The notes below the pieces were generated by a model. It worked only from the letters and a program-made list of their open reading frames with translations. It searched no databases and was not told where the DNA came from. Shown here piece by piece: positions 1 to 19,700 of a stretch of DNA of 46,984 nucleotides. The translations under genes were made by a program, and so were the position numbers. This DNA is from Candidatus Saccharimonadota bacterium (GTDB lineage Bacteria; Patescibacteriota; Saccharimonadia; Saccharimonadales; Saccharimonadaceae), in contig JAPUET010000028.1 of the NCBI GenBank assembly GCA_027492465.1, positions 1 through 46,984 on the forward strand. Direction: 5' to 3'. How positions within the stretch are numbered: the stretch's first letter is position 1; the number at the start of each line of letters is the position of its first letter.

Positions 1-519
1 CAAGGTGCAACTGGTCCGCAAGGTGCTACGGGGCCGGCGGGGGCGACGACGATAGCGGGGATTTCAGGGTTGCAAGGGGTTTTGGATGGGAAAGTGACGA
101 CCAGTGTTACGATGTCAACCATTCCGTCGAGCTCACAATTTAGTCGTAATATTACCTATACTCTGGCCACTGATAATCCCGATATTGCTCAAATCGCCAT
201 CAACGGCATCGTCAAGTACTGGCACAATGAGTGGGGTGCAATTCGTGGAACTTCGCCTTACAACTGGGGCGATGCGTTGGTGCGAGCAGTTCGCAGTAAT
301 GGCGATGGCATTACTGGAGGTCAGGCCTTCCAGCTCAACGACCGCCGTACTGGGGCTCCTGCGCCGGTGATGTGGGGTGTCAACTGGACTGACGGCCGCA
401 TGATACAGGGCGGCCAGCAGGTTGGAGCGGTATTCGTCCTGAATGCCAATCAGAGTGCCTCAGATATTCCTGCTACACTACCGGCAGGGACTCTGATAGT
501 CCGAAAGAGGACTTCGTAA
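1..519 (+). CDS. Collagen-like protein, 3' part (5' end outside window)
   Basis: The frame is open from base 1, so the gene starts upstream of the window. The first ~15 codons are Gly-X-Y triplets ([17 protein letters not shown]), followed by a ~150-residue C-terminal domain with no family I recognise. That domain ends in LPAGTLIVRKRTS, which resembles the LPAGSTIRV segment near the end of the collagen-like protein at 38097-39065, so the two are probably related. The stop codon overlaps the next ATG by one base (TAATG), which implies translational coupling in an operon with the two genes downstream. By analogy with the second copy it is likely a fibrous stalk or adhesin-like element presenting the enzymes encoded next to it; that role is inferred. 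No signal peptide can be judged because the N terminus is missing. Confidence 0.75.
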   Translation, partial: QGATGPQGATGPAGATTIAGISGLQGVLDGKVTTSVTMSTIPSSSQFSRNITYTLATDNPDIAQIAINGIVKYWHNEWGAIRGTSPYNWGDALVRAVRSNGDGITGGQAFQLNDRRTGAPAPVMWGVNWTDGRMIQGGQQVGAVFVLNANQSASDIPATLPAGTLIVRKRTS

Positions 520-1457
520 TGGCGACTGTTTTAGAATGGAGTTCTGGCACCCTGGCTGCGACGGGTGCCGTCGTTACTGGTACGGTGAATGTTGTATCCG
601 ACACTGGGTTTGACCGGGCTGTTATGCCTCAGAGCAGTGTCGGTGACAACTTTGGCTGGGGAAGTCTTAGCCTATCTCGGTTTACGATGCGCGCGTACAT
701 CACAATGCCTTCGGCGTGGGCCTCAACTTCGGCAACTTTGCTTTGCTCTCAGGTAGCGGGTGGCACGCAAAATTCGCGTATGAACATAGCGGGGACGGGC
801 GCACCCGGCCAGGTTCGTTTGATAGCCAATAATAATGTGCAGGTTGCCCAGTCGGCTACAGGCTTTCTGAGTTTTTCGACCGTTGTACGCTGGGAGATGC
901 AGGTCGATACGACAAACAGTACTATCCGGGCGGCGGTGTTCCCGCTTGGTTCTGACGTAGCGAGTTGGGACTCAGGACTTATCAATAACGACGTGGGTGG
1001 CACGACAACTACACTAAAGTTTGGAAAAGGTGTCGGTACGATACCGTCGCTTCCCGAGATTAGTATTTCTCGTGTTAAGGCTGTCGATACGGTAGGGACT
1101 TGGATTGGCCGTCATGCTACCGATATATTGAGCGGTGGAGGTAGCGGTCAAGATAGCTCAATCGCTCTGTGGAATGCTGCTGTTGCACAGAGTAGTGCTC
1201 TTTTGGGGGTGTGGAATGGGAGCGCACTCGACCTCATCGAGACCGGTTCAGAAATATGGGTGTGGCACTATGATTGGGCAACCAGTCAATGGACGACACC
1301 ACCAGCAACGCGACCGTGGGCTGAGGTGACTCGGGTGCTCGCGTCCGGCCCAACCGAGCCGTCGGCTGGATTGCGACCAGCCTGGATGGGCAGTGATGCT
1401 GATGAATGGGCAGCCGGAAAAGCCATCGTACACTATATAGCCGCAGGTTCGCCATGA
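519..1457 (+). CDS. Concanavalin/LamG-like beta-sandwich protein
   Basis: A 312-residue protein starting at the ATG that overlaps the preceding stop. It is rich in Ser, Thr, Gly and aromatic residues and alternates short beta-strand patterns. Residues ~1-205 resemble each of the two repeats of the protein at 40070-41392: both start with a W-[DS]-SGTL pattern, then MRAYITMPSAWAS or a close equivalent, then GTGAPGQVRL, then FPLGSD..WDSG, and end in WIGR. This is typical of LamG/concanavalin-like sandwiches, which often bind carbohydrate. The C-terminal ~100 residues are Trp-rich (WVWHYDWATSQW) and unassigned. There is no signal peptide. It overlaps the next gene by four bases (ATGA). Ligand binding is inferred from fold-like patterns only. 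Confidence 0.7.
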   Translation: MATVLEWSSGTLAATGAVVTGTVNVVSDTGFDRAVMPQSSVGDNFGWGSLSLSRFTMRAYITMPSAWASTSATLLCSQVAGGTQNSRMNIAGTGAPGQVRLIANNNVQVAQSATGFLSFSTVVRWEMQVDTTNSTIRAAVFPLGSDVASWDSGLINNDVGGTTTTLKFGKGVGTIPSLPEISISRVKAVDTVGTWIGRHATDILSGGGSGQDSSIALWNAAVAQSSALLGVWNGSALDLIETGSEIWVWHYDWATSQWTTPPATRPWAEVTRVLASGPTEPSAGLRPAWMGSDADEWAAGKAIVHYIAAGSP

Positions 1458-2524
1458 GTCGCTTTGCATCACGCGTGCGCCGTGCGCAACCAGTTAGAAG
1501 GGTTTCCGGTCTCCCTGGTGCAGGGCAGGGCTTTCTTCTTGGTATGTACGTTTCCTCCATCCCTAATCTCCTTGCGCTTGAATCGGACCTCGGCCGTCAG
1601 TTCGATGGTATGATTCGCTATCGCGACAGCAATATGTGGTCCAACTGGCCTGAAAGTAGCGAAGTCCAACTGGCCAATCGCGGTGGGTTGTTCCGTTACG
1701 CCTTTAGTACTCGCGTATTCAACTACAATGCGTATACGCAGCATCCTAGCATGCCGCCGATTGGCTGGGACTACATCAATCCAGCCGATAGTCAGCGCTA
1801 TATTGGATTCAAATACTCACAATACCTGAATGGCTCTATGGACCCGCTGCTAGACAAAATATTCTCCAGCCTCAAGACGGCTGCCGAAACCTATGACACA
1901 ACCTTTCTCTTTGACATGGGAGTCGAGATGGATGACAACCCCTATGTCCTCGAAGGTTTCTCACATGGTGTCATCACCTACAATAACGCCCAGCCGTATA
2001 GCAACCCTACCATGCCCAATCCGCAAGAGTACATCGACTATCATCGTTACATCGTGAACTATGGCAAGACGTTCAATATTCCAAATATTCTCTGGGGTTT
2101 TTGCCCGGCTGGTTGGACGCTGTCGCGCAATGCCACCAGACTCGGTCAGATGTACCCCGGCGACAACTGGGTCGATGTCATTATGTGGGACCCATACAAC
2201 AACTCTGGGAGCAATTGGCGCTCTTTCACGCAGATTGTCAGCCCGATGTACAACGCCATCGATGGCGGTCTGTTCGGCAGCGGTGCCATTAACAAGCCTC
2301 GATTGCTTGGTGAATTCGGCGCTCTGACTGGCGACGCTCGCCGTCCTGCTTGGATAACCTCCATTGCCACCGAAGCCCAGGCCCTGCCAAAACTCCGCGG
2401 TGGCCTCTGGTTCTCTTCGGGTACCTGGGGCGCTATCCATGGTAGTAACGGTACCGCAGATGAGCGCACCGCTCTGCGAGGACTGATGGACCACCCGTAT
2501 TTGAATGTATGGAAGACGGGGTAA
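1454..2524 (+). CDS. GH26-like glycoside hydrolase
   Basis: A 356-residue protein; the ATG at 1454 overlaps the previous stop, which fixes the start better than an upstream in-frame codon. After a basic ~25-residue N terminus the sequence reads as a TIM-barrel glycosidase of the GH26 (beta-mannanase) type: GQGFLLGMYVSS at the first strand, Glu158 in GVEMDDNPY as likely acid/base, YPGDNWVDVIMWDPYN (typical of GH26), and Glu287 in LLGEFGA as likely nucleophile. The family hydrolyses beta-mannans and related glucans by a retaining mechanism. No signal peptide is visible, which is odd for a polysaccharide-degrading enzyme; both neighbours share this. It is the last gene of the coupled operon. Family assignment is by motif and exact substrate is unknown. 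Confidence 0.72.
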   Translation: MSRFASRVRRAQPVRRVSGLPGAGQGFLLGMYVSSIPNLLALESDLGRQFDGMIRYRDSNMWSNWPESSEVQLANRGGLFRYAFSTRVFNYNAYTQHPSMPPIGWDYINPADSQRYIGFKYSQYLNGSMDPLLDKIFSSLKTAAETYDTTFLFDMGVEMDDNPYVLEGFSHGVITYNNAQPYSNPTMPNPQEYIDYHRYIVNYGKTFNIPNILWGFCPAGWTLSRNATRLGQMYPGDNWVDVIMWDPYNNSGSNWRSFTQIVSPMYNAIDGGLFGSGAINKPRLLGEFGALTGDARRPAWITSIATEAQALPKLRGGLWFSSGTWGAIHGSNGTADERTALRGLMDHPYLNVWKTG

Positions 2525-2708
2525 GTAAGTATTGCGAAAGCCTTTATTGACACTAGGTTCTGACCGGCTTTCTACTTGACAACTTCTGGAAGACGAAGAG
2601 GTCTGGTTACTATAGAAGTAGTTACGCCTTAAGCATTGGTCTTAGGGTTTGCAAAATATGGTACGACTACGTCTGGGGCGGGGAATAAAGCCGTTTTGGT
2701 CGTACTGG

Positions 2709-5537
2709 CTAGTACTTGCTGAGGTAGTTTAGACCAATATTGCCGATTCGGACGTCGCCGCCGTTGGGCGACTGCATGCGTAGGCGCAGGGTGATGTAGT
2801 CGCCCGCAGTGTAGGTGCCGGTGCCGAGCGTACAGGCAGAGTTGTTGGTGGTCCAGGCGTTGGTGCTGCCGGGTGTGACAGAGACGAAGTTGCAGCGCAC
2901 GGCACCCGTACTATCGCGTGCCTCGAGAGTGATAGTGCCATTGGTGGTGCTGCTGGTATAAGTGGAGATGGCGAGCGGGTTGCTGCCGTCCCAGCCATCG
3001 AAGTCGTTTGGCAATGGTATTTGTACGACAACATCATAGTTTTGGTTGCTCCCCTGACTAGTAGTCCACTTATAGTAGTTCATTCGGCTCGTTAGGTCGA
3101 CGCTACTGGTCATCGTGCCATTGTTGCTACCGCCACTACCAGCGTCGAGCACGGCGCCAGTGTATTCAGCGGTGAGAGTAATTTTTTTACTATTGCGAGC
3201 AGTACCGGCACGTGTGATACCGTTCGCCGATAGCGTGATGGTATTGCCGCCACTACCAATGATGACCTGCATATTGGCGGTATCGGCGGTCAGGAGCGCG
3301 GTTGACGAAGCATTTTGCACCTGGAAGGCAGTAGCACTGTTGTTGCCGGTAGTTGACTTTATAAGCGCGCGGCCATTGATAGTGGTCAAGACATTGCCGC
3401 TTGTTGTACCCATGGTGATGGCTGTTGCTGTTGCCGTACCAATATTAAGTGTCGTGGCTGTCGTAGTGTCGAGTGTGCCAGCTACCAAGACCGTGTTGTT
3501 GGTGGTGTTAACGGTCAGAGCGCTTGTGCCCGCGGCATTTTGCACCTGGAAGGCGGTAGCACTATTGGTGCTGGTTTGGACGCTGGCGCCACTGCTTGAT
3601 TTGTTAATAAGTTTGCCGTTTTCGTCCACTTGATTGGCATAGATATTGGCGGTACCGAGGTCATGAATGGAGCCGCCACCGAGTGTGTTATCGGCAAAGT
3701 AGTTACCGGTAGAGCCAGCATCTTGGACGTCGATAGCGTAGTTGGTGGTGGTGGCTGATGTGTCAGTAATAACATTCCCAGTAAAAGTATTACCAGTTGA
3801 GGCACTGAAAAGGATGACTGCCTGGTTGGTCGTAGCCCCGCCATTGTTACGGAAGCGATTACCCGACACGGTGTTGTCATTTGCCATCGCGAGCAAAAGT
3901 CCTGCTGTCCCAGTGGTAGTAATCGTATTACCGGTAATTGTATTGTTCGCACTCGTACCGTCTATCGCTAGTCCATATTGTGAATTGGACTCTAAGGTAT
4001 TGCCGGTGATAGTGCTCTGATTAATTGGCGACGCATAAATACCACGCGTTGTATTGCCCTGCAGCAGGTTGTCGCTAATTGTCATGTATGCACCGTTCTT
4101 GATATAGAGACCCATGCTGCTGGCATTCACATGGCTGTCAGATACGATAGTGTTATAGGAATTCTCAAGCATAATGCCGTAGTTGCGTAGTTGGCTCATC
4201 CAAACAGTATTTATTTTCGCGCCTTGTCGTGCTGAGCTACCAAAGCCGCCGCCCATGTTATAGAAATAGATACCATGTTGCGTACCGCTTGAGTTGTTGG
4301 CTTTATTACCGTCGATGCGTAGGTTGGTAACAGTGACACCGGTGCCTGTCGTGGTATCGGTGGCGACGATTGCATTCATATCGGCATTGATGCCGTTTTT
4401 GAGCTTGATGACTGTGCCGCTGCCCGAACCGATAAGCGTGACATTGTTCGGAATTGAAATGCTACCATCGATAATATACGTGCCCTCCATCAGGTAGACA
4501 CTGCCGCCATTACTACCAAGGGCGGTGAGGGCGCTATTGATGGTGGTTTGGGCGCTGGTGGTCGAGGTATTTACATAGTCAGCTCCATCGGCGTTCAAGC
4601 TTGCAGCCGCACCGCTGGTGCCGCCGCTTGCGCTGGTGCCAACTATCTTGCTGGCGGTACTCCGGTCGCTTTGCCATTTGCCATTGGCATAGACCAGTAG
4701 CTGCTTGGTGTCGGTGTCGAAGTACAACATACCTTCAGTTGGGCTGGCTGGGCGGGTATTGGTTGCCCCACCAGCGAGTGTCAGGCTCTTGCCGGCTGCG
4801 ACAGTAACGTCATCGGCCATGGTGATACTGGTCGCATTGGTGCCGCCGATAGTCAATGTACCGGCGGTAGCGGTATCGACTACTGGAGCTTGCAAGGCGG
4901 TGTCGGCCCGACCAGTGCCGGAAATCCAGAAATTGCTACTTGTTTGCTGGGCGGTGTTTTGGTTGTGAATGAGGGCGCTTGCCTCCATGCCGCCAAGCGT
5001 ATTGGCATTTTGTGCCTGCATGGCATAGGGCACTGCGGTTAAGCGCTTCATTGGCAGCATCTCTCCGTCGGCCACGCAACTGCCAGAGCCGAAGGCGGTA
5101 CAGTTACTTGCCGAACCGGCCACGTTCATGCTGAGCCAAAGGGTATCTTGATTCCAGTCGATACTTGAACCGAAGGGGATGACAGAGCCAAGTTCTACGG
5201 CAAAATAGCCGTTCTTCACCTGTACGCCGCTCGTACCGCCGTTATTAACACGCGGCTCTGTCCATTTGAGCGTACCACCGGTGTTGCCGGCGCTTGTGCC
5301 TGGCCCGTCTTGATAAATCTTAAATTCAATATTGTAGTAGCCGTCGGCAACGATGCCTCCCGAGGCATTAAGGAGGCGCCCCTGAAAGCTAATTGTTTGG
5401 TTAACACCTGTGAGGGCATGAGCAGGAACAACAAAGAATAACGTTGTAATAATCGCAACGCATAAGGTAATCAGCCCTGCTGTAAGCAGTGCGAGACGCC
5501 GTTTAAGAATAGTGGGTAGGTGGCACCACACAGTCAT
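2709..5537 (-). CDS. Large secreted parallel beta-helix surface protein
   Basis: A 942-residue protein. Residues ~12-42 form a signal peptide or membrane anchor ending PAHALTG. Residues ~43-180 carry a domain starting NQTISFQGRLLNASG, which I associate with CPR surface proteins. After a Thr/Ala-rich linker comes a domain with VYLMEGTYII and SIPNNVTLIGSG, then a run of right-handed beta-helix (PbH1/NosD-like) repeats at ~360-640, visible as many short N-T-I-T/S-G-N units. Such helices often bind or cleave polysaccharide or form tailspike-like fibres. The C terminus is a beta-sandwich-like region ending in a terminal Tyr. It is transcribed divergently from the F1-like ATPase cluster across a 306-base gap. 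No Shine-Dalgarno is visible before the ATG. A catalytic function cannot be assigned. Confidence 0.75.
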   Translation of the reverse strand: MTVWCHLPTILKRRLALLTAGLITLCVAIITTLFFVVPAHALTGVNQTISFQGRLLNASGGIVADGYYNIEFKIYQDGPGTSAGNTGGTLKWTEPRVNNGGTSGVQVKNGYFAVELGSVIPFGSSIDWNQDTLWLSMNVAGSASNCTAFGSGSCVADGEMLPMKRLTAVPYAMQAQNANTLGGMEASALIHNQNTAQQTSSNFWISGTGRADTALQAPVVDTATAGTLTIGGTNATSITMADDVTVAAGKSLTLAGGATNTRPASPTEGMLYFDTDTKQLLVYANGKWQSDRSTASKIVGTSASGGTSGAAASLNADGADYVNTSTTSAQTTINSALTALGSNGGSVYLMEGTYIIDGSISIPNNVTLIGSGSGTVIKLKNGINADMNAIVATDTTTGTGVTVTNLRIDGNKANNSSGTQHGIYFYNMGGGFGSSARQGAKINTVWMSQLRNYGIMLENSYNTIVSDSHVNASSMGLYIKNGAYMTISDNLLQGNTTRGIYASPINQSTITGNTLESNSQYGLAIDGTSANNTITGNTITTTGTAGLLLAMANDNTVSGNRFRNNGGATTNQAVILFSASTGNTFTGNVITDTSATTTNYAIDVQDAGSTGNYFADNTLGGGSIHDLGTANIYANQVDENGKLINKSSSGASVQTSTNSATAFQVQNAAGTSALTVNTTNNTVLVAGTLDTTTATTLNIGTATATAITMGTTSGNVLTTINGRALIKSTTGNNSATAFQVQNASSTALLTADTANMQVIIGSGGNTITLSANGITRAGTARNSKKITLTAEYTGAVLDAGSGGSNNGTMTSSVDLTSRMNYYKWTTSQGSNQNYDVVVQIPLPNDFDGWDGSNPLAISTYTSSTTNGTITLEARDSTGAVRCNFVSVTPGSTNAWTTNNSACTLGTGTYTAGDYITLRLRMQSPNGGDVRIGNIGLNYLSKY

Positions 5538-5629
5538 TTTTTGATGTTTTTCTTTATTTTTTCTCTGTTACCAGTTCAAAAATATTTATTTCACTTACGA
5601 CGTGTGGTGGGCCATCAAAGCTTGGAGAT

Positions 5630-5638
5630 ATTTTACCA
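5630..5638 (-). promoter_or_regulatory. Extended -10 promoter for the beta-helix gene
   Basis: Read on the minus strand this is TGGTAAAAT, which matches the TGnTAnnnT pattern seen throughout the window. It lies about 92 bases upstream of the ATG at 5537. No convincing -35 element is visible. Confidence 0.4.
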
Positions 5639-5794
5639 TGAGCGTGATTTAAATGACAATGATTTATTGCAAAAAATGCAAGAGCCGTACTACTGAAGGC
5701 GACCGTCAAATTTAAGTCACACATTCTCTAAAAAACAAATAGCAAAAACATCAAATAGTTATTGTGCAAGTTGATGAAAATCACATCGTGGTCA

Positions 5795-5803
5795 TGGTAT
5801 AAT
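5795..5803 (+). promoter_or_regulatory. Extended -10 promoter for the F1-like ATPase cluster
   Basis: TGGTATAAT is a perfect -10 hexamer with an upstream TGn extension, 40 bases before the GTG start at 5844. It is the only strong promoter candidate seen ahead of the whole cluster, which suggests one polycistronic transcript through 12384. The -35 region is weak, as expected for extended -10 promoters. Confidence 0.6.
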
Positions 5804-5843
5804 TATGGAAAGACGCAGCTAAAACCTAAGGGGGTAAAACAAC

Positions 5844-6686
5844 GTGAAAATAATGCGGGGCACGCTTTACGCGGTAATCGTATTGAGTAGCCTACTATTT
5901 TGCGTTTCACCCCTGTATGCTGAAAGTTATGGCGGCGGGAGTGTACAAAGCTATGCGGCCGAAGCGCCGCTTGATGTTGGCACTATTGTGCAGCTTAGCG
6001 CTAAAGACTCTAAAAAAGTGAAAGTAGCAACCCAAACTGAGCTCGCGAATATGTTTGGTGTTGCAGTAGACCGAAACCAGTTACCAATTGCGGTATCGAG
6101 CGAGGGCCTAGAAAACGAAACTTTCGTGGCAGTTTCGGGCACCTACAATGTTCTTGTGAGTACCCAGGCTGGCGATATAAAAACTGGCGATTTTGTCACC
6201 CTGTCGTCGGTTAATGGGGTTGCGATGAAGGCGGGAACTAAAGAGAAAACCGTCTTGGGGCGAGCGAATGGATCGTTTAACGGCAAAGGTGTCACTCTTG
6301 GCCAAGCAACCTTAAAAGATAGTGCGGGAAAAGCGAATCAAACAGTAACACTGGGTTCCATTCCGGTCACCATTGCTATTCAGAACAACCCAAACGAAAT
6401 AAGTACGAAAGTAAATGTACCAGATATTCTTGAAAGAGTTGGTCAGGAAATTGCCCAAAAAGAGGTGAGTCCCATTCGAATTTATATTAGCCTTGCCATC
6501 ACCGGTGTTAGTTTAATTGCGGCGATTGCGGTAGTATATGCCGGAGTTCGTAACGGCGTGATATCCATTGGTCGTAATCCGATGTCAAAAAAATCCATTT
6601 TTCGAGCCTTGCTGGAAGTATTTTTGACTGGCATTCTGATTTTGGTTATCGGTCTATTTGCGGTATATTTACTACTGAAGCTATGA
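5844..6686 (+). CDS. c-subunit-like membrane protein with secreted N-terminal domain
   Basis: A 280-residue protein; GTG start with AAGGGGG eight bases upstream (ATG at 5853 is an alternative). Residues 1-26 are a Sec signal peptide (cleavage near YA|ES). Residues ~40-205 form a beta-rich exported domain. Residues 212-241 and 252-279 are two membrane helices joined by a short loop with Arg-Asn-Pro at 244-246. The hairpin resembles F-type c subunits: AGVRNGVISIGRNP parallels the Gly-rich helix 1 end and the R-Q/N-P polar loop that touches gamma/epsilon. The predicted topology (outside, helix, cytoplasmic loop, helix) also fits. The essential carboxylate, normally 18 residues after the loop Pro, is Ile264 here; the only acid nearby is Glu258. 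It opens the F1-like cluster. The c-like assignment is inference; a generic two-helix surface protein is the alternative. Confidence 0.6.
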   Translation: MKIMRGTLYAVIVLSSLLFCVSPLYAESYGGGSVQSYAAEAPLDVGTIVQLSAKDSKKVKVATQTELANMFGVAVDRNQLPIAVSSEGLENETFVAVSGTYNVLVSTQAGDIKTGDFVTLSSVNGVAMKAGTKEKTVLGRANGSFNGKGVTLGQATLKDSAGKANQTVTLGSIPVTIAIQNNPNEISTKVNVPDILERVGQEIAQKEVSPIRIYISLAITGVSLIAAIAVVYAGVRNGVISIGRNPMSKKSIFRALLEVFLTGILILVIGLFAVYLLLKL

Positions 6687-6709
6687 TGCGAAATGAAGTG
6701 GGTTAAGGG

Positions 6710-7456
6710 ATGGGATTATTTCACAAACAAACGAAACCAAGCGATGACAGCGCCGATATTACTCAAGAAGAGCAGTTTTTGGATGCAAATTTTCGCGAGG
6801 AACTTCGTAACCACGGCCGCTGGTATTTTGAAAAAGTTATCAATGAAAACGGCGTCCTTTTTAAGAAAGATCTTGATACTACTGTTGACGCCATTCACCT
6901 TGAGTTAAAAGATCACATCACTCGTCAGCTTGACGATGCTCTTGTTGCTATGGGTAACGAAATAAAAACCCACATTTCTCAGCAAGTAGAGGCTCAATTT
7001 TCGCAGTACGTAAAAACAATGACCGACGCTCAGCAGACGGCACTCCAAACAATGACCAAAAGTGCCCAAGACCTTGAGGCTCGTCATAAAGAATTGGGTG
7101 AAACATTGACACGTAACGTGACTGCCCAAGAAGGCTTGCTTCATGCTGCTTTCGAAGACAATAAAGCGCAAATTGTTGCTATGAAAGACGCACAGAATAC
7201 CGCGTTGCAATGGCTTAACTACACCGCCCAAGAGATGCAAACACTCCAAAAGCAAATTACCGAATCGCTTGAAAAAAATGTTGCCGCGCAAGAAAAAGCG
7301 ATCGTTGAGAACTTTGAAAACAATATGGCTCAAGTTGTCGAGCATTACCTTTTGGGCGCCCTGAGCGATCAGTATGATCTTAAGGCGCAGGTGCCGGCAA
7401 TTATCAAGCAGCTCGAAGCTAACAAACAGGCGATTATGGACGATATGAAGTTATGA
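6710..7456 (+). CDS. Soluble coiled-coil stalk-like protein with internal duplication
   Basis: A 248-residue, almost entirely helical protein, Gln/Glu/Ala-rich with heptad-like spacing and no membrane segment. It sits where atpF (b subunit) would be, before the delta-like gene, and so probably replaces the peripheral stalk. Residues ~106-156 and ~160-210 are an internal duplication with a 54-residue period: both begin DAQxTALQ and contain NV(T/A)AQE and FE(D/N)NxAQ(I/V)V. The N-terminal ~100 residues contain WYFEKVINENGVLFKKDLD. Unlike a normal b subunit it has no N-terminal anchor, so the stator would need another way to hold the membrane. Its stop codon overlaps the next ATG by four bases. 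Function is inferred from position and coiled-coil character; no named family is recognised. Confidence 0.6.
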   Translation: MGLFHKQTKPSDDSADITQEEQFLDANFREELRNHGRWYFEKVINENGVLFKKDLDTTVDAIHLELKDHITRQLDDALVAMGNEIKTHISQQVEAQFSQYVKTMTDAQQTALQTMTKSAQDLEARHKELGETLTRNVTAQEGLLHAAFEDNKAQIVAMKDAQNTALQWLNYTAQEMQTLQKQITESLEKNVAAQEKAIVENFENNMAQVVEHYLLGALSDQYDLKAQVPAIIKQLEANKQAIMDDMKL

Positions 7457-7971
7457 CCGAGACTGTAGCAAAACAATACAGCGATTTTGTCTTGCCACCC
7501 AGTGTTGTTAGCCGGGTTGATATCTCAAGGCTAGTGACGGAGATTGAGCAAATCGATAGCGTGCTGACGGCTATGCAAGTGCGTGCCGGGGTTGGTATTG
7601 CCCCAGAACAAAATCCTACCCTTTCGCCCTGCTTGAGCGAGTTTCTGGCGCAGAATCAACTCATGCTAAAAACAAGCAAAGAGCGCACAGCGCTGATAGA
7701 GCAGATGCATCGATTAAAAGATACAGTGCCAACAATTCATATGACGTTTGCGAGTACTGCCGACCCGGAGAGTTTAGGTCAGTTAGCGGCATGGTTACGA
7801 GGCGAGGTCCATCCTCAGGCGGTGATTGCTGTTGGCTTGCAGCCCGCCCTTGTTGCCGGCGTGTATTTACGAACCCCAAATCATGTGCATGATTTATCAC
7901 TGCGAGCGGCCGTGAAGAGTGCGCGTGGAGTATTGCGTCAGGAAATGGAGCAGCTTAGTGGCAAACGCTAA
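7453..7971 (+). CDS. F1 ATPase delta-subunit-like protein
   Basis: A 172-residue protein overlapping its upstream neighbour by four bases and the alpha gene by 14. The N-terminal ~90 residues are helical, as in the delta/OSCP N domain. The C-terminal part has the delta signature pattern: IHMTFASTADPESLG, then VIAVGLQPALVAGVYLRTP, then HDLSLRAAV, corresponding to the usual (v/D)pxLiGGvxvrxgdxvxDxSvrxxL. Canonical delta caps the alpha3beta3 head and ties it to the peripheral stalk; here its partner would be the coiled-coil protein just upstream. The two Gly of the usual LIGG are Val-Ala-Gly here, so the protein is divergent. Assignment rests on the C-terminal pattern and the gene order. Confidence 0.68.
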   Translation: MTETVAKQYSDFVLPPSVVSRVDISRLVTEIEQIDSVLTAMQVRAGVGIAPEQNPTLSPCLSEFLAQNQLMLKTSKERTALIEQMHRLKDTVPTIHMTFASTADPESLGQLAAWLRGEVHPQAVIAVGLQPALVAGVYLRTPNHVHDLSLRAAVKSARGVLRQEMEQLSGKR

Positions 7972-9532
7972 GTTTTTTGAGCAACTGGTGCAAGCAGGAA
8001 ATCCGGTTGGCGAAATTATCGGCCTCGATTCGTTCATGGTGAGCGTTAAAGGCCTGCAGCCGACTAATGTGCATGCCACTGTGCGATTCGATGACGACAC
8101 TCGTGGCTACGTGCACCAGGTGTTTGAAGAACATGTTGTGGTGATGAAGCTCGATCCGAGTCCGCTCAAAATCGGTGCCGTATGCGTGATTGAAAAACCC
8201 GATATCATGACACCCGTTGGTAAAAATTTTATTGGTCGTGTTATCAATGTGTTTGGTGAGCCAATTGATGGGAAAGGCGCTATTCAGGCCGACCAAGAAT
8301 GGGATGTGTTTCACAATGCTCCGGCTTTGTTTGAGCGTGAGTTGCTCGATACGCCGGTTGAAACTGGTGTAACGATTCTTGATCTTGAATACAGCCTAGC
8401 TCGTGGTCAGCGCATGGCCATGCTTGGTGATAGCAAGGTGGGTAAAACAGCGCTTGCGGCTTCGGTGGCGATTAACCAAAAAAATACCGATATCACGGTG
8501 GTATATGTCTTGATCGCAAAACGTCAGCGTGACGTGGCGGAGCTTGTGAATAATCTTGAAAAAAATGATGCAATGAAAAAGGCGATTGTCATTGTGACGA
8601 ACTCGTTTGAATCGCTCATTTTGACTTATCTAGTGCCCTATGTGGGTGCCGCACACGGTGAATATTTCTGGCATCAGTGTAATATGGATACGTTGATGAT
8701 TTATGATGACTTAACGGCACACGCTCAGGCATATCGTGAAATTTCGCTTATCGCCGGCGTCAGCCCAGGGCGCGATAGTTATCCGGGAGATATGTTTTAT
8801 ACACACTCAAGCCTCCTCGAGCGTGGCGGCAAAACTGAGTCAAATCATGCCAGCCAAACACTCATCCCCATTGTCTACGCGCCCGGCGGCGACATCACAG
8901 CATATCTGCCGACGAACATCATGTCTATTACCGATGGACAGTGGATTTTGGATGGAGCAATTTTTAAAGACACGATGCGTCCGGCCGTTTCAACTGCCCT
9001 ATCGGTGACGCGTGTTGGTGGCGTGGGGCAAAATAAGCGTCAAAAAGGCCTGGCCGACAAACTGAACCTCACACTTGCTGGCTATCGTACTGCAGAAGAG
9101 TATGCTCACTTTGGTACTGAGCTCAGCCCGCAGGCGCAAGCTGATTACGATAAAGGTAAGGTGCTGTTTAAACTCATGAATCAGGGAATTGGTGAAATTT
9201 ATAGCTTTGCCGAACAACAATTTTTGATGAGTATTGTACTGGGGAGTGCGCCTGAAGAGATTGTTAATATTGAAAAGCTCAAAGAAAAAGTTCATGAATA
9301 TGCTGCGAAACTGCAAGAAGATAAAGATATGAACGGCAACTTTGATGAAATTTGTGCAGCACTCAAGAATGAAGTCACTACGATTGATGAGGTGAAAAAA
9401 GCGGCTATCGAAAAGGCCGCTAAAGCGGAGGCGGAGAAAAAGCGTCAGGCCGAAGAAGCGGCTAGGGCCGCGGCGGGTGAACGGCAGCCTGACGAGGGGA
9501 ATGTCGGTACCAATGAAAAGGAAGCTAAATAA
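7958..9532 (+). CDS. atpA: F1-type ATPase alpha subunit, divergent
   Basis: A 524-residue protein if translation starts at GTG 7958, which has GGAG seven bases upstream; an in-frame GTG at 7919 lies deep in the delta-like gene and has no such site. Order: N-terminal beta-barrel, nucleotide-binding domain with P-loop GDSKVGKT (157-164) and Walker B-like TLMIYDDL (245-252), PGRDSYPGDMFYTHSSLLER, SITDGQ, and Arg352 in SVTRVGG as the arginine finger reaching the catalytic site of beta. The key residues of a functional alpha are therefore present, although the N-terminal helix is shortened and the C terminus carries an extra Lys/Glu/Ala-rich tail (~45 residues) not usual in AtpA. It may be a specialised paralogue rather than the energy-conserving enzyme; that depends on the membrane sector. 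Confidence 0.9.
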   Translation: MANAKFFEQLVQAGNPVGEIIGLDSFMVSVKGLQPTNVHATVRFDDDTRGYVHQVFEEHVVVMKLDPSPLKIGAVCVIEKPDIMTPVGKNFIGRVINVFGEPIDGKGAIQADQEWDVFHNAPALFERELLDTPVETGVTILDLEYSLARGQRMAMLGDSKVGKTALAASVAINQKNTDITVVYVLIAKRQRDVAELVNNLEKNDAMKKAIVIVTNSFESLILTYLVPYVGAAHGEYFWHQCNMDTLMIYDDLTAHAQAYREISLIAGVSPGRDSYPGDMFYTHSSLLERGGKTESNHASQTLIPIVYAPGGDITAYLPTNIMSITDGQWILDGAIFKDTMRPAVSTALSVTRVGGVGQNKRQKGLADKLNLTLAGYRTAEEYAHFGTELSPQAQADYDKGKVLFKLMNQGIGEIYSFAEQQFLMSIVLGSAPEEIVNIEKLKEKVHEYAAKLQEDKDMNGNFDEICAALKNEVTTIDEVKKAAIEKAAKAEAEKKRQAEEAARAAAGERQPDEGNVGTNEKEAK

Positions 9533-9638: not shown

Positions 9639-12084
<2,446 letters not shown>

Positions 12085-12085
<1 letters not shown>

Positions 12086-12384
12086 TGGCGGACGAAGCAC
12101 CAACAACCGAAGGCGATCAGCCATCAAAAGCGAACGGTAAACCCTCAATGGCGGTAAAAGTGTACGCACCGTTTCAGGTATATTTTGAGGGCGATGCTTA
12201 CAGTGTCAGTGCGGTCAATGCGACCGGTCCGTTTGATATTTTGCCCAAGCACCATAACTTTCTTTGTATGCTCGTGCCCTGCAGTCTTAAAATTGTGGGC
12301 GTAGATACCGAAAAAACAATCAAAGTTCACCGAGCCCTGATGCACGTCAAAGCTGACCGTGTCGTTGTCTTTATGGATGTCTAG
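12085..12384 (+). CDS. atpC: F1-type ATPase epsilon subunit, N-terminal domain only
   Basis: A 99-residue protein with a GTG start that shares a base with the beta stop. Residues 1-25 are a polar low-complexity extension. Residues ~26-99 form the epsilon beta-sandwich: VKVYAPFQVYFEGDAYSVSAV, then GPFDILPKHHNFLCML for the conserved GxfxvLpxHapxl. The C-terminal helical hairpin of standard epsilon (~130-140 residues), which inhibits hydrolysis, is missing. In canonical enzymes this sandwich sits at the foot of gamma on the c-ring loops, so its presence supports a c-like partner in the membrane. A hairpin follows the gene. Confidence 0.78.
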
Positions 12385-12473: not shown

Positions 12474-13337
12474 ATGAGCAGGGCGGCTTCACAAATTAAT
12501 GGCGATGACAAACTTATTCCCCTTGATAAATCTTGGGTGATTCGTATGAGTATACAAGAACTTTTATACGGCGATCGTATGCGAGCCATCCGACAGCTAG
12601 ATGCCCAGACTGATCTATCGGATGACATCAAGGCATTGCGTGAGATATTAGGTCAATGGTCGACCAGCCAGGCTCTTAATGTGGGTGAGTCGGGTACTCT
12701 ACTGCGCTTTTTTACATTCATTAATTGGAAGCAGAAACTTGGCAAAGAGATAATAATGCGCGGTACACTGTTACATCGTCCGATTAATGATAACCCAAGT
12801 GTTATTGAATGGTCTCAAGAGCGATTGCTTACCTTAGATAACGGGACGTCACAATGGGCAAGTGCGGCCGTGCTTTGTGGTGATCAAAGACGCTTGAAAG
12901 AGCCTCCCTTTAAACTAAACACAACTTACGAAGCTTGGCATAGCTGGCACGCGTCATCTAGCCCCGAATTGTTGCGTCGTGACAAAACAATTGAGGCGCA
13001 GGCCCATGCCTTTCGCTTGTTGCAACAGACTGGTGAATTGCATTTCATCCCTAAACAGGCCGAGGATTTCCCTTTTGCATATATGTTTGGTTGTATGGGC
13101 GTAAAACAGGGCGAGCAGCTATGGCCGAGCTTGATAGGGCATGAGAGCAATAGAATAACTGAAGTAGTAGAAATGAAACGGCGTGCTGAGATGGGCAAGC
13201 CCGTGACGTCGCGGGACCATCGTGTGGTTCAGGCTCTTGCCATGTGGAGCCGATTCCACAAGAAGCGGGTAACGTTTACTTACCCGGAAGCAGTGACGAA
13301 ATCGTGGCCAAGGTTCTGGGACTGGTTAGATGCTTAG
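12474..13337 (+). CDS. Shortened EPSP-synthase-like (AroA superfamily) protein
   Basis: A 287-residue protein whose two ends match 5-enolpyruvylshikimate-3-phosphate synthase but which is ~140 residues shorter than AroA (~430). N-terminal: LDKSWVIRMSIQELLYG resembles the family's K-S-xxxR start, followed by LSDDIKALREIL and GESGTLLRFF for the GNAGTxxR motif, then LLHRPI for xxRPI. C-terminal: SRDHRVVQALAM for DHRxAMxxA and EAVTKSWPRFWDWL for xVxKSfPxFwxxL. The middle of the two-domain fold is missing. No other shikimate gene is seen here. It could be a degenerate enzyme or a repurposed EPT-fold protein; enzyme activity should not be assumed. It begins leaderless from its own promoter. Confidence 0.62.
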   Translation: MSRAASQINGDDKLIPLDKSWVIRMSIQELLYGDRMRAIRQLDAQTDLSDDIKALREILGQWSTSQALNVGESGTLLRFFTFINWKQKLGKEIIMRGTLLHRPINDNPSVIEWSQERLLTLDNGTSQWASAAVLCGDQRRLKEPPFKLNTTYEAWHSWHASSSPELLRRDKTIEAQAHAFRLLQQTGELHFIPKQAEDFPFAYMFGCMGVKQGEQLWPSLIGHESNRITEVVEMKRRAEMGKPVTSRDHRVVQALAMWSRFHKKRVTFTYPEAVTKSWPRFWDWLDA

Positions 13338-13370: not shown

Positions 13371-14384
13371 TTAGTTGGTAATAAAGTAATCAAAGGCGAA
13401 TGCTTGATTCGGAGCGGCGGCATTATTGGTGCAAAGACTAAAGCCGGTTGGGCTGCGCTCTACGTAGTATTGTAGCTGCCCTGCCGCTGCCCCAATTGGA
13501 GTAACCACTACGTGTGGTTGATTGCTAAAGCGCTGATTAAAGGTAATTTGAATAAAACATCCCGTCGTTGGGGTGCCACCACTATTAATGTTGATGGTAC
13601 CGGTGGTGTCTGAACCGTCGATTGAGGCTGTGCCGCCCGCACCAAGGACACCACTATTAATAGAACGAGTTGGCGCGGCGCCGGTGAAGCTGATGTGGTT
13701 TGGTACTTGTAGTGTGGCATTGCCGCTAAGTACCAGTTTTGTAACGGTAATCTGAGAAGCGGTCATTGGGCCGCTAAATGAAGAGGTGCCTGATACGTTT
13801 AAGTCGCGAAGTGTTGTGCTACCCTGAACGGCCATGTTGGTTGCAACTTGCAGACTATTGCTTTGGGTTTCGCCAAGATTTGCGGCCCCGGAGACCGTGA
13901 TGGCGGGCCCGGTAATAGTGCCGCCGCTTTGGAAATTTCCGGCGACATTAAGATTGCCACGCATCAATGTCTGGCCGGCAATAATTGCATTGCCCTGAAT
14001 GGTGAGGGTTTGATTAGTGCTGCCCACGCTTGCATCTGTGTTAGCCAGCTGCTTCAGCGCTTCTGTGGTGAGGTTCTGCGACTCAACACTGGCTGTTTCG
14101 GGCGCTTTCGTACTATTAAGATATGTAACAAGCGTAAAAATACCCGCAACCACGAGTACCAATATAAAAATTAAAAGATACACATTGATTTTACGAAACA
14201 ACCGCTTAATGGGAGAGAGTTTCTTTTCGGGCGTTTCGCTAGCGGGCGCACTATTTGTCGACGCTTCTTCGGCAAGATCGTCGGGCGTGCGACTGAGCGC
14301 ATCAGCTGGGGCATCTTGTGACGAACCCTCAGCTGGTTTGGGTGCGTCAGTATCTGCCGGGGAAGTATTCTTTTCGGGTTCCAT
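13371..14384 (-). CDS. Membrane-anchored surface protein with beta-repeat domain
   Basis: A 337-residue type II membrane protein: an acidic, Pro/Ala/Ser-rich cytoplasmic N terminus (1-55), a basic patch KKLSPIKRLFRK, one membrane helix (~67-88), then an exported part. Residues ~125-235 show repeating short strands rich in Gly, Asn and Thr (IQGNAIIAGQTLMRGNLNVAGNF and similar), which suggests a small beta-solenoid. The C-terminal ~90 residues form a separate beta domain ending QAFAFDYFITN. No family is recognised with confidence. It is convergent with the AroA-like gene and divergent from the surface block to its right, to which it may belong. Confidence 0.7.
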   Translation of the reverse strand: MEPEKNTSPADTDAPKPAEGSSQDAPADALSRTPDDLAEEASTNSAPASETPEKKLSPIKRLFRKINVYLLIFILVLVVAGIFTLVTYLNSTKAPETASVESQNLTTEALKQLANTDASVGSTNQTLTIQGNAIIAGQTLMRGNLNVAGNFQSGGTITGPAITVSGAANLGETQSNSLQVATNMAVQGSTTLRDLNVSGTSSFSGPMTASQITVTKLVLSGNATLQVPNHISFTGAAPTRSINSGVLGAGGTASIDGSDTTGTININSGGTPTTGCFIQITFNQRFSNQPHVVVTPIGAAAGQLQYYVERSPTGFSLCTNNAAAPNQAFAFDYFITN

Positions 14385-14489: not shown

Positions 14490-15227
14490 ATGCAAAAACG
14501 AAGAGTATGGGAGAGTTTAACACTAGTGTTGCTGGCGATAGTTATCGTTGCCGGCAGTTCTCGTAGTGTGTTTGCGAATACTGCAACCTCGCCAAATTAC
14601 CAGCTTAGTGAAAGCGAATTTAGCGCCGGGGCGACACCGGGAGTGTGCTCGGGCGGCTACTGTGCTCGCGTTTCTATTGGGAATATTTCGGGTGAGTCGG
14701 CTAATGCAACCAGTACAGCCTCGTTTGGCTCAATCACGCCAGACGAACCATTTTTGGCGGTTATTGTTGATCCTGGCATTTCGAATCTCGGCGTCCTCGA
14801 TACCGAACATACTGGGTCTAAAACAATGGTCGTGAGAATACGTAACTATTTAAGTGATGGGTATGTGCTGCGGATCACCGGCGCTCCGCCCACTTACAGC
14901 GGCCATGCCCTTGCTACTCCTTCAACGCCCACCGCTGCCACTCCTGGCACTGAGCAGTTTGGCATTAACGCTGCGGCTAACACTACCCCAAGCATCGGCG
15001 CGGGCCCGGTACAGGTGCCATCGGGCGATTTTAGCTATGGCCAGGTGAACAGTGGATATAACACGGCGAACCTCTTTAAATATGCTAGTGGCGACGTTGT
15101 AGCGCACAGTAACAGCGAATCAGGTCAGACAGATTTTACAATCAGCATGATCGTGAACATTGCAAATAACACCCCTGCCGGCCTCTATTCGGGCGATTAT
15201 TCAGCTGTTGTAGTGCCTACATTTTAA
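14490..15227 (+). CDS. Exported surface protein, QFGIN family
   Basis: A 245-residue protein with a signal peptide (1-29, cleavage near VFA|NT). The N-terminal part has two Cys (GVCSGGYCARVS). The C-terminal part is shared with other proteins of the block: PGTEQFGINAAANTTPSIG, an aromatic-rich YNTANLFKYASGDVVA segment, then a final strand TPAGLYSGDYSAVVVPTF ending in Phe. It is the shortest of four related proteins (with those starting at 15372, 17373 and 20747). All-beta, no enzyme motif; probably a structural component of the cell surface. Weak purine-rich AAGG precedes the ATG. Function unknown. Confidence 0.65.
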   Translation: MQKRRVWESLTLVLLAIVIVAGSSRSVFANTATSPNYQLSESEFSAGATPGVCSGGYCARVSIGNISGESANATSTASFGSITPDEPFLAVIVDPGISNLGVLDTEHTGSKTMVVRIRNYLSDGYVLRITGAPPTYSGHALATPSTPTAATPGTEQFGINAAANTTPSIGAGPVQVPSGDFSYGQVNSGYNTANLFKYASGDVVAHSNSESGQTDFTISMIVNIANNTPAGLYSGDYSAVVVPTF

Positions 15228-15279
15228 GACGATTTTGCACCCAAATAAGTTCAACCACAAAAAATGTGGATAACTCTAC

Positions 15280-15309
15280 TTGCGTAAATGATATCGCTAA
15301 TGCTACAAT
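15280..15309 (+). promoter_or_regulatory. Promoter of the 629-residue surface protein
   Basis: TTGCGT (15280-15285), an 18-base spacer and TACAAT (15304-15309) preceded by TGC. The ~55-base leader that follows includes TTAGGAG just before the ATG at 15372. Confidence 0.55.
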
Positions 15310-15371
15310 GCGCTTGTATCCCTAGAAGAAGGGGCTAAATAAAACAAACACTAATTAGGAGATATACAAAA

Positions 15372-17261
15372 ATGTATACACTCAAGTCAGTCGCCCGGCG
15401 TGGCACGCTGCTGGGTGCTGCGTTTACCCTTGTGGTTGCGGCACTACTCCCAGCGACGTACGCATCGGCCGATGCGTTGAATCCGCTTACGGAGCGCAGT
15501 TTGACGCTATCAAGCTCGAGCCCAGGATGGAGTTTCACCGACGGTTCGGGTAATACTACTTATGCACCACCAAACAGTGGCGCGAATGGAAAACAGACCG
15601 GTAATTACTTTGATTTCAAAGTAAGTAGCTCGGCAACTGTTAAAACGTTTTCATTCCAGTACTGTAAAACATCGGCTGGTAACTGTGAAATACCTGGCGA
15701 CAATGCTTCGTCTGGCGTAGACACTACAACTACCGCCGACCTTAACGCTGCTTTCCCGGGTACGCCTACCGACCTTGAAGTGGGAAGTGCTAATTTTGGT
15801 ACCGTTATCAATACCGGCCCCGATACCGATCCTGATGCAGGCAAAGTAAAAGCCGTACCAGGGTACACAAACAACAACCCTAAGTATCAGGCAAATGGTG
15901 GTACGGGTGATGCGGCCGAAGCAGCAAAAAGTGTTACCGGTAACTATATAGTTATGTACCATGATCCAACAGCAAACTCAGGAGCTGGTGGATGGGTACA
16001 AAGTACTGGCTGGAAAGTCACTGCGCTTTCGGTTAAGAACGCAGGTACGCGTGCAACTAAAAATTACATTACACTTTCGAGCACCGCCGGCAAGGCCTTC
16101 ACTAGCGGTCAGCATGTTAAAGTGTTGTTCTTCGCCAACGGCACTAACTACATTACCAACCCAGGTAGCGGAGCATTCTTCGTAAAAATTAATACTTACG
16201 GGGTTGAATATGACGGCTCCACTATTACCGAGACAGCCCTTGCGCCATCAACTGATGCCAATATCATCGACGGTGGTGTAACGGTAGCTAACGTGATGAA
16301 CCAGTCAATCCAGATCACTACCAAGGTGCTGGAGACGATGGAATTCTCCGTAGGGACAGTTGACCCAAATACACTCAGCGGGTCTGAACTTGCCGCATCA
16401 GACTATGGCAGCGCAACACACATCCCTTGTGGGCGTATTCTGACACGGCTAACGACTGCGTCGACCGATCCAAAGAATGTTCTTCGGCTTGGTAACCAGG
16501 GTGCAGAAAGTTCACTAGAGACCGCCAAAGCTTACGCAACACACTCATACTGGCGCCTCAGCTCTAACTCATCTGGTGGTGCATCAGTATACTACTCTGG
16601 TCACACACTTTCTAACACGTCAGGTGACGAGATTGAGCCTATTGGCACGACAGCAAAAATTTCAGCTCCTGGCTCGGAACAGTTTGGTCTTGCGCTATCT
16701 ACAAAGGCTCTATCGGGTACCACAACTGCTCCGGCAGATACACCCAATTTCAATACAGGTTTGTATGGTGTGAACTATGTTCAAGATCGTGCATCTGGTA
16801 AAGAATGGGAAAACGCTGCAGACAATGACAAAACAGGAATTAGTAGTGAAACTCTGTCAGACCTTGGAGCGCTCTATACTGGTACCGCTCCAGCATTATG
16901 GAGTCCAACTGACGCTAACTGGGATTACCAGACAACTCCATTAAATAAGAGCTATCATACCCCACGCCTCGATCCGCTTGTGCCAGAAGTATCATATGCT
17001 AATGGCTCCGGAAGAATCAACGGTAATGACAGCTTGGACGCAAACGGCGTTGCATTCGGTGGTGGTGGCTATAGTTCAACGAACGCACAGTTTGCCTTCG
17101 ACAAGATGTCAGACACGGTTCCTGCACTGCTTGCAACCGAGGCGACACAAGTTGTGGACTGTGTAACTGCTAAAATGCGTTACATCGGTAACATTGCCGC
17201 AACTACACCAGCTGGTATCTACACTACCAAAATCAACTACATTGCAGCCCCTCAATACTAA
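15372..17261 (+). CDS. Large exported surface protein, candidate major surface layer component
   Basis: A 629-residue protein with signal peptide (1-34, TYASA|DAL) and good TTAGGAG ribosome site. The mature start LNPLTERSLTLSSSSPG matches LTTRSAALSSSSK and LTDRSLLMGTTEPG of the proteins at 20747 and 17373, so these begin with a shared domain. A short QYCKTSAGNCEIP cysteine pair follows the first strands. Toward the C terminus it has PGSEQFGLALSTK, then VVDCVTAKMRYIGNIAATTPAGIYTTKINYIAAPQY, the family's closing strand. It has no catalytic motif and is rich in Thr, Ser, Gly and Ala. Its own promoter, long leader and a hairpin after the stop suggest strong independent expression, as for a major surface protein; that is inference. 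Confidence 0.68.
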   Translation: MYTLKSVARRGTLLGAAFTLVVAALLPATYASADALNPLTERSLTLSSSSPGWSFTDGSGNTTYAPPNSGANGKQTGNYFDFKVSSSATVKTFSFQYCKTSAGNCEIPGDNASSGVDTTTTADLNAAFPGTPTDLEVGSANFGTVINTGPDTDPDAGKVKAVPGYTNNNPKYQANGGTGDAAEAAKSVTGNYIVMYHDPTANSGAGGWVQSTGWKVTALSVKNAGTRATKNYITLSSTAGKAFTSGQHVKVLFFANGTNYITNPGSGAFFVKINTYGVEYDGSTITETALAPSTDANIIDGGVTVANVMNQSIQITTKVLETMEFSVGTVDPNTLSGSELAASDYGSATHIPCGRILTRLTTASTDPKNVLRLGNQGAESSLETAKAYATHSYWRLSSNSSGGASVYYSGHTLSNTSGDEIEPIGTTAKISAPGSEQFGLALSTKALSGTTTAPADTPNFNTGLYGVNYVQDRASGKEWENAADNDKTGISSETLSDLGALYTGTAPALWSPTDANWDYQTTPLNKSYHTPRLDPLVPEVSYANGSGRINGNDSLDANGVAFGGGGYSSTNAQFAFDKMSDTVPALLATEATQVVDCVTAKMRYIGNIAATTPAGIYTTKINYIAAPQY

Positions 17262-17299
17262 ATCGATATAGATTTAGCCCCTCCTCGCGGCAACGTAGC

Positions 17300-17331
17300 G
17301 AATATCCGGCCTTCTAGTAGGCCGGATATTC
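17300..17331 (+). terminator. Perfect 12-bp hairpin after the surface protein gene
   Basis: GAATATCCGGCC and GGCCGGATATTC pair perfectly around an eight-base loop (17312-17319), 39 bases after the stop. The following ATTTG is only mildly T-rich, but the stem is strong. Confidence 0.65.
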
Positions 17332-17357
17332 ATTTGTTACGCATACCAGCTATAGTC

Positions 17358-17366
17358 TAGTACAAT
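17358..17366 (+). promoter_or_regulatory. -10 element giving a leaderless start
   Basis: TAGTACAAT, with the hexamer TACAAT ending six bases before the ATG at 17373. There is no Shine-Dalgarno. The same TAGTACAAT word precedes the genes at 19701 and 32718. Confidence 0.55.
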
Positions 17367-17372
17367 AAATCT

Positions 17373-18449
17373 ATGCAGCATAAGTTGTTTAACTTGCATA
17401 CGCTATTCCATAACTGGCGCTTTGTCTTTACCGAAGAGATGGTGGCGGTACTACTCGTGCTATTCGTGTTTATTATGCCCGTTTCTGCAACAACTCGCTT
17501 AACCGATCGTAGCCTGCTTATGGGCACTACTGAACCAGGCGCCACCACTTCCTACACTATTGCCTTTACCTACATGACGCCCTCGGCAATTGGCTCTATC
17601 GACCTGCAATTTTGCGAAAGCCCAATACCGTATGAAACGTGCGTAACGCCAGCCGGGCTAGATATCTCAGCCGCCACACTTTCGGCGCAAAGTGGCGAAA
17701 CAGGATATTCAATCACTACACACACAAGCAATCATATTATTCTTTCGCGCTTACCAAGTTTCGTAAATAGCGGTACACGCGGATCGTATACGTTTAGCAA
17801 TATTGTCAATCCATCTAGCTCGGCCACGGCATTTGCGGTGCGGCTACGTACCCACGCCACAACGAGCACCGCGGGAAATCACGTTGATTTCGGCTCGGTA
17901 CGAGGACAGGTGGGCAAGGGGATTGTGCTTGAAACTCAGGTTCCGCCAATGTTGATATTTTGCATGGCAGAGCAGGTAGACGACAATTGCCTCGGTACAA
18001 ACCAGAATTATTACACCGATATGGGCGAACTAAGCCCAACCACAACACTCACCGCTCAGTCGCAAATGGCCGTCGGCACCAATGCCTCGGGCGGGTTTGC
18101 CATTACCGCCTACGGTAATCCCCCTACGGCAGGTACAAATGTTGTCGATACACCAACGGTACCAACAGAAAGTAGACCCGGCACCACTCAGTTTGGGATA
18201 AATCTGGTTGAAAATACTGCTCCGGCCATTGGGAGTAATCCGATAGGAGTGTGGGCAAACGCTCAGCCGACGAGCGGGTATGGCCAGACAAACCGGTATA
18301 TGTATGTTCCGGGCGATATCGTTGCGAGCTCTCCAAATGTTAGTCTTATGAAAAAATTTACCGTAAGTTATATATTCAACACGAGCCCTAATTTACGAGC
18401 GGGTGTGTATACGACCACCATTAATTTCGTAGCCAGCGGCCGATTTTAA
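17373..18449 (+). CDS. Exported surface protein, LTxRSL/QFGIN family
   Basis: A 358-residue protein. Residues ~20-42 form the export signal (LVLFVFIMPVSA|TTR). The mature protein starts TRLTDRSLLMGTTEPGATTSYTIAF, followed by the cysteine element DLQFCESPIPYETCVTP, a YTFSNIVNPSSSATAFAVRL strand pair, a second Cys pair (FCMAEQVDDNCLG), then PGTTQFGINLVENTAPAIGSNP and the closing RAGVYTTTINFVASGRF. It therefore contains the full domain order of which the proteins at 14490, 15372 and 20747 show parts. The start is the ATG at 17373, with a -10 box six bases before it. Probably a structural subunit of the cell envelope; no enzymatic motif. Confidence 0.7.
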   Translation: MQHKLFNLHTLFHNWRFVFTEEMVAVLLVLFVFIMPVSATTRLTDRSLLMGTTEPGATTSYTIAFTYMTPSAIGSIDLQFCESPIPYETCVTPAGLDISAATLSAQSGETGYSITTHTSNHIILSRLPSFVNSGTRGSYTFSNIVNPSSSATAFAVRLRTHATTSTAGNHVDFGSVRGQVGKGIVLETQVPPMLIFCMAEQVDDNCLGTNQNYYTDMGELSPTTTLTAQSQMAVGTNASGGFAITAYGNPPTAGTNVVDTPTVPTESRPGTTQFGINLVENTAPAIGSNPIGVWANAQPTSGYGQTNRYMYVPGDIVASSPNVSLMKKFTVSYIFNTSPNLRAGVYTTTINFVASGRF

Positions 18450-18458
18450 TGCTACAAT
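18450..18458 (+). promoter_or_regulatory. Extended -10 promoter for the first DUF916-like gene
   Basis: TGCTACAAT begins immediately after the TAA of the preceding gene and gives a leader of ~45 bases that includes GAGGG before the ATG at 18510. Confidence 0.55.
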
Positions 18459-18509
18459 ACTGCTTATAGTAAAAAACATACTTAAATACATGTGAGGGAA
18501 ATTAAAATA

Positions 18510-19690: not shown

Positions 19691-19700
19691 AAACGTAAGC

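Follow-up and report, generated by a model that had tools for sequence, protein, structure and literature searches.

The window analysed here, a stretch of 46,984 nucleotides that makes up one of the 39 contigs of a Saccharibacteria-type genome totalling 995,740 bases, carries an open reading frame whose product, c280, joins an exported domain to a C-terminal pair of transmembrane helices resembling subunit c of the F-type ATP synthase. Rotary ATPases are known for pumping ions or making ATP, with the motors of mycoplasmas as the known exceptions, and we asked whether the hairpin of c280 is a genuine relative of subunit c and what such a subunit may do once the residue that binds the ion is gone. 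A chance reading frame was ruled out, as full-length homologues were found in many genomes. The layout proposed in the first-pass annotation, a signal peptide followed by an exported domain (hereafter the crown) and a hairpin with an RNP loop, was confirmed from the sequence, and the gene is resolved into the following features:

5844-6686, plus strand: crowned c-like subunit c280, 280 aa, with signal peptide, exported crown domain and c-type transmembrane hairpin
5844-5921, plus strand: signal peptide, about residues 1-26, read from the sequence; an N-terminal hydrophobic segment is present in 146 of 150 homologues
5931-6401, plus strand: exported crown domain, about residues 30-186, which in the AlphaFold2 model folds like phage capsid decoration proteins and the C-terminal domain of phi29 gp12
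6471-6683, plus strand: c-type helical hairpin, residues 210-280, with no acid at the ion-binding position
6570-6581, plus strand: GRNP loop, residues 243-246, predicted cytoplasmic, invariant in an alignment of 62 rows
6633-6635, plus strand: Ile264 (codon ATT), at the site where subunit c has its ion-binding Asp/Glu

The AlphaFold2 model of c280 (mean pLDDT 88.9) placed the hairpin helices at residues 210-244 and 246-279, a hairpin of the length of subunit c, with P246 closing the GRNP loop and the exported part spanning residues ~27-190. Every one of the 150 distinct homologues has a net positive charge in the loop (+3.7 on average); taken together with the N-terminal hydrophobic segment, this predicts a cytoplasmic loop and a crown outside the cell, which supports the orientation that had been suggested for the protein.

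Scanned alone, the window protein gave no c match in Pfam or NCBIfam, and profiles of its homologues were required. A profile of 62 hairpins had Chloroflexus c as its best PDB match (E 0.1) and aligned with canonical c in hhalign at P 3.5e-5, and a profile of 144 hairpins aligned at P 2.2e-5 while the reversed-c control gave P 0.58. The Pfam model PF00137 matched one homologue, G113, over positions 2-60 (E 0.0075). Hairpins outside the Saccharibacteria were found to be less derived than the Saccharibacterial ones, and a profile of 20 of them from other Patescibacterial classes (profile A7) was searched against 177,635 PDB sequences; the ten best matches were all ATP synthase c (E 2.3e-5 to 0.019). 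Profile A7 aligned with canonical c at an hhalign probability of 91.7 and with the Saccharibacterial profile, to which the window belongs, at a probability of 98.6 (E 1e-15) across the whole hairpin, and NCBIfam subunit-C models matched 16 of its 20 members (best 5.7e-6). Pfam matches to MHYT, Tetraspanin, LtrA and FMN_bind were rejected as chance, being single-member matches that disagree with one another while the subunit-C models agree.

Superposition of the c280 model on Chloroflexus c (Foldseek, VIA-align) gave an rmsd of 1.1 Å over 67-69 residues, a TM score of 0.90 by target and a Z of 10.9. Since plain helical hairpins can reach middling Z values, the sequence evidence weighs most for the homology. 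The c280 hairpin is genuinely related to F-type subunit c, and the likeness to c noted in the first-pass annotation is borne out by the profile-profile alignment and the PDB profile search.

The resemblance to the ATP-synt_C family is incomplete. The polar cytoplasmic R-(N/Q)-P loop joining two long transmembrane helices is present, while the glycine-rich packing motif of helix 1 is absent from the c280 hairpin; counting from the loop Pro, most homologues carry Tyr at P-14, Ile or Leu at P-16 and Arg or Lys at P-10 at the positions of the glycine motif. Canonical subunit c forms a ring of 8-17 copies bound to gamma/epsilon, and it is this glycine motif that packs the ring. Because the glycine motif and the carboxylate are both missing, c280 is named here a c-derived subunit and not ATP synthase c.

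The carboxylate itself was followed through the homologues. The gapless profile alignment places the Asp of canonical c on Ile264, which lies, as had been noted, 18 residues past the loop Pro (P+18). No acid occurred at this position in any of the 150 distinct homologues, where Leu, Ile, Val, Phe, Ala, Gly, Thr or Met was found instead, and the lack of the ion-binding acid noted in the first-pass annotation thereby holds for all of them. An acid anywhere within the two membrane cores (as defined) was seen in 9/150. The P+12 position is Gln or Glu in Saccharibacteria; in the loci L235-L246, outside the Saccharibacteria, Asn is invariant at P+13 and Thr frequent at P+17, both polar and non-acidic. 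These polar positions would be the natural candidates if another site of the hairpin, together with an unrecognised stator, passed ions. We regard such an unusual pump as improbable, given the empty P+18 position and the rarity of acids in the membrane core, and given that the cluster contains neither a subunit a (PF00119) nor any conserved multi-transmembrane neighbour. With subunit a and the c carboxylate both missing, a rotor built on this hairpin is not expected to transport ions.

The genes downstream of c280 are those of an F1 motor with its peripheral stalk:

6710-7456, plus strand: b-like peripheral stalk coiled coil, 248 aa, here without a transmembrane helix
7453-7971, plus strand: delta/OSCP-like subunit, 172 aa, hhalign probability 95.8 against canonical delta
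7919-9532, plus strand: F1-like alpha, 537 aa as listed (the true start may be later), PF00006 E 1e-62
9639-10505, plus strand: F1-like gamma, 288 aa, full length, PF00231 E 2e-27
10505-12085, plus strand: F1-like beta, 526 aa, catalytic residues kept
12085-12384, plus strand: epsilon, 99 aa, N-terminal beta-sandwich only, PF02823 E 1e-10

The order c-b-delta-alpha-gamma-beta-epsilon, all on the plus strand, is the canonical atp order minus subunit a and with c280 in the place of c, and a complete canonical operon (a, c, b, delta, alpha, gamma, beta, epsilon) is found on another contig of the same genome, C33. Alignment of the homologues revealed no variation at the Walker A Lys/Thr, the catalytic Glu, the Arg of GER or the Walker B Asp of beta (108/108 sequences), nor at the P-loop Lys or the Arg finger of alpha (119/119); judged by these residues, the F1 of the crowned-c operon is predicted to be catalytically competent. 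Epsilon is short throughout the family (median 102 aa among 108 homologues), the C-terminal helices being absent and the rotor-binding sandwich kept. The b-like subunit shows weak homology to canonical b (P 0.006) and carries a single N-terminal transmembrane helix in 54 of the 77 named loci considered, but in none of the window's clade. Conservation within the hairpin is highest in the RNP loop, which in c rings is the contact with gamma/epsilon. Immediately behind the operon, the 287 aa open reading frame 12474-13337 (plus strand) matches the C-terminus of EPSP synthase (aroA) over its last ~48 residues (E 6e-9) and not over the rest; no homologue of it was found near the other clusters of the initial set.

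A decaying duplicate of the atp operon might be suspected, as the hosts are genome-reduced and the presence of the cluster is patchy. The invariant catalytic residues and a gene order intact over many families argue against decay, as does the retention of the cluster where the canonical synthase has been lost, and this explanation was rejected with hardly any probability left to it.

We regard with more attention, though still as unlikely, the proposal that the hairpin is a static membrane dock for an F1-like ATPase engaged in export, unfolding or FliI-type assembly gating, with nothing turning outside the cell. The lost packing motif of helix 1, the b subunit without a membrane helix in the window's clade and the adjoining genes for secreted surface proteins are consistent with a dock of this kind. 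Gamma, epsilon, delta and b are nevertheless retained in the canonical order, and the loop that would contact gamma/epsilon is the best conserved part of the hairpin; a mere anchor would need none of these.

Full-length crowned c was detected in some 70 of the 150 related genomes and in 58 of the 380 genomes from the phylum. Its distribution extends over Patescibacteria and includes both genomes that have a normal ATP synthase and genomes that lack one. The 80 named loci belong to Saccharibacteria or other Patescibacteria, save loosely named MAGs (one labelled Chloroflexi). At least one of alpha, gamma and beta lies near the crowned c in 75 of them, usually in the same order, and the complete order from c to epsilon was present in 61/80, most of the others showing its beginning; some of the five loci without alpha, gamma or beta are cut by contig ends. 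The first-pass annotation had named homologues away from F1 genes as an outcome that would speak against its reading, and this linkage largely answers that concern. The complete genome of strain TM7i (CP075337) carries all seven genes as well as the fibre gene f337 described below. Among 60 genomes, crowned c and a second F1 set were both present in 27 and both absent in 29, with F1 only in one and crowned c only in three (Fisher 2e-12, shared ancestry ignored).

Solo crowned-c paralogues with no F1 genes nearby were also observed (L048, L050, L051, L053-L055, L067, L068, L072-L074), some of them adjoining housekeeping genes; the genomes checked that carry such paralogues have a second F1 set elsewhere. 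In one Patescibacterial family (L130-L133) a single F1 cluster has a different crowned-c gene on either side, an arrangement that would permit a mixed rotor.

The distribution of subunit a was then compared with that of crowned c. Almost all genomes carrying PF00119 have a single gene for it, placed in the canonical operon, even where there are two F1 sets, and a PF00119 match is absent from 23 of the 58 phylum genomes with full-length crowned c. Several of the a-less genomes consist of one or a few contigs and are about 94-100% complete, and where checked their F1 genes adjoin the crowned c; the system therefore needs neither a subunit a of its own nor a borrowed one. This bears directly on the possibility that the crowned c or the second F1 shares the canonical Fo, either its subunit a or its c ring, and tunes ATP synthesis. 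The complete canonical operon in the window's genome would allow such a hybrid, but the a-less genomes with F1 genes beside their crowned c speak against it, and a c subunit without carboxylate is expected to stall a pumping ring. The hybrid was rejected on the strength of the a-less genomes, and we hold it to be very improbable.

Fold searches with the exported domain of the AlphaFold2 model (Foldseek, VIA-align), as the first-pass annotation had proposed, returned capsid decoration proteins and the phi29 gp12 C-terminal domain; the modelled crown superposed on phage decoration proteins with Z 12.0 and an rmsd of 2.5-2.7 over 111-112 residues, and a weak Pfam match to the XM1 gp53 minor capsid protein was also seen. 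The crown has a fold in common with the phage decoration proteins Sf11, SHP, gpD and HFTV1 and with phi29 gp12, but it differs from the phage proteins in being fused to a c hairpin, exported by a cell and encoded in an operon without capsid genes. A phage element was ruled out; the operon contains F1 genes only. Phage decoration folds are often trimers.

Two neighbouring genes flank the operon and are given here with their coordinates:

2709-5537, minus strand: f942, secreted right-handed beta-helix protein, upstream of c280 and divergent from it
13371-14384, minus strand: f337, with a disordered cytoplasmic tail, one transmembrane helix, a bactofilin-like shaft and an H-type-lectin-like tip

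The f337 gene, single copy in the window's genome, lies directly behind epsilon on the opposite strand (convergent) in some 70 of the 107 complete clusters. Among 150 genomes it was found with crowned c in 51 and without it in one (Fisher 2e-23, shared ancestry ignored), while a full f337 is missing from 18 genomes that have crowned c; beside the non-Saccharibacterial operons it is mostly absent. The shaft resembles bactofilin (Z 12.7), PF04519 being matched in 21/24 members (best 7.7e-6), and the tip weakly resembles the R1 pyocin fibre and Helix agglutinin (Z about 6). Compared with bactofilins, R-pyocin fibre tips and H-type lectins, f337 is a surface protein with one transmembrane helix and not a cytoskeletal filament or a phage part. 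Two giant surface proteins, encoded at L230 (ORF 3-9266) and L233 (ORF 519-6176), end in a crown followed by an f337-type tip, and this tandem fusion suggests that the two domains have their place next to each other. Crown domains were also seen in further open frames, the longest of 4,400 aa.

An upstream f942 gene is confined to the clade in which b lost its transmembrane helix, and it is possible that its product is a replacement part of the stator or of the load. A run of secreted surface-protein genes occupies 14490-21892 (plus strand) downstream, and relatives of these genes were seen near the operon in about 25 loci.

Taking the evidence together, we somewhat favour an ATP-driven F1 motor with an ion-blind rotor of crowned c, acting on a surface structure outside the cell. 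ATP hydrolysis by alpha3-beta3, whose catalytic residues are kept, would turn gamma and epsilon, and these would hold on to the invariant RNP loop in a membrane rotor of crowned c subunits, arranged as a ring or another oligomer. As there is no ion path, torque would pass to the crown on the outer face, where the crown may be presented to, or may grip, the lectin-tipped fibre f337, to which it is tied by gene linkage and co-occurrence. The F1 head would be held by b and delta, b being membrane-anchored in most members; the b subunit without a transmembrane helix in the window's clade is a weak point for stator anchoring and counts against this arrangement. Because the glycine motif of helix 1 is absent and decoration folds are often trimeric, it is possible that the rotor is a small oligomer or trimer, or that it does not rotate. 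The likely use would be adhesion to the host surface, probing or movement by the episymbiont. The first-pass annotation is therefore supported in part: the c descent, the loss of the acid, the cytoplasmic loop, the exported domain and the F1 linkage hold, while the ring of 8-15 copies and its turning are inferred.

Comparison with the F-type ATP synthase (PF00137, PF00006) indicated that the gene order from c on, the catalytic residues of F1, the hairpin fold and the RNP loop are common to both and that delta is recognisable. The crowned-c system differs from the synthase in having no subunit a, no carboxylate and no glycine motif in helix 1, in the signal peptide and exported domain of its c, in an epsilon without C-terminal helices and in a b that may lack its transmembrane helix.

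The nearest analogue in function is the F1-like X0 of mycoplasmas, also a second F1-like motor of seven genes in small parasitic cells (PMC3369863, PMC11864180, PMC12994834). These motors are thought to act on surface proteins and not in ATP making (PMC3369863, PMC11864180, PMC12994834); Type 2 (G1-ATPase) drives the gliding of M. mobile and Type 3 is needed for MIB-MIP (PMC11864180, PMC12994834). Both systems carry F1-like alpha, beta, gamma and epsilon as a second set, and the mycoplasma Protein 5, with a signal peptide and two C-terminal transmembrane helices, has by the papers' description a layout like that of c280 (PMC3369863, PMC12994834). A point of difference is that for MSC_0620 a trypsin test put residues 182-231 in the cytoplasm (PMC3369863, PMC11864180, PMC12994834). 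The available text of these papers reports no homology of the Protein 5 hairpin to c (PMC3369863, PMC11864180, PMC12994834). The two systems differ in that the Patescibacterial cluster is without the 12-transmembrane Protein 1 while the mycoplasma clusters are without separate b and delta. That widespread Patescibacterial rotary ATPases drive a lectin-tipped fibre through a crowned, ion-free c ring, and that Protein 5 is the same invention, is a tentative proposal which we put forward as possible but doubtful.

In the open-access literature searched, no paper was found to describe a second F1 set in Patescibacteria, Saccharibacteria included. The available text of a CPR survey counts F-type synthases and makes no mention of a second F1 set (PMC10656485), and a Tn-seq study reports that a Saccharibacterial epibiont can dispense with its 'predicted F-type ATP synthase' (PMC10633639). 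Calls of 'ATP synthase present' based on alpha and beta may be wrong in Patescibacteria.

How rotation crosses the membrane is a question in the mycoplasma motors; here a candidate coupling part is visible in the sequence, namely a c subunit without an ion site fused to an exported domain. The host phylum is a large one of small, largely host-dependent bacteria whose attachment to their hosts is poorly understood, and if the crowned c turns, it would be part of a new kind of cell-surface rotary machine.
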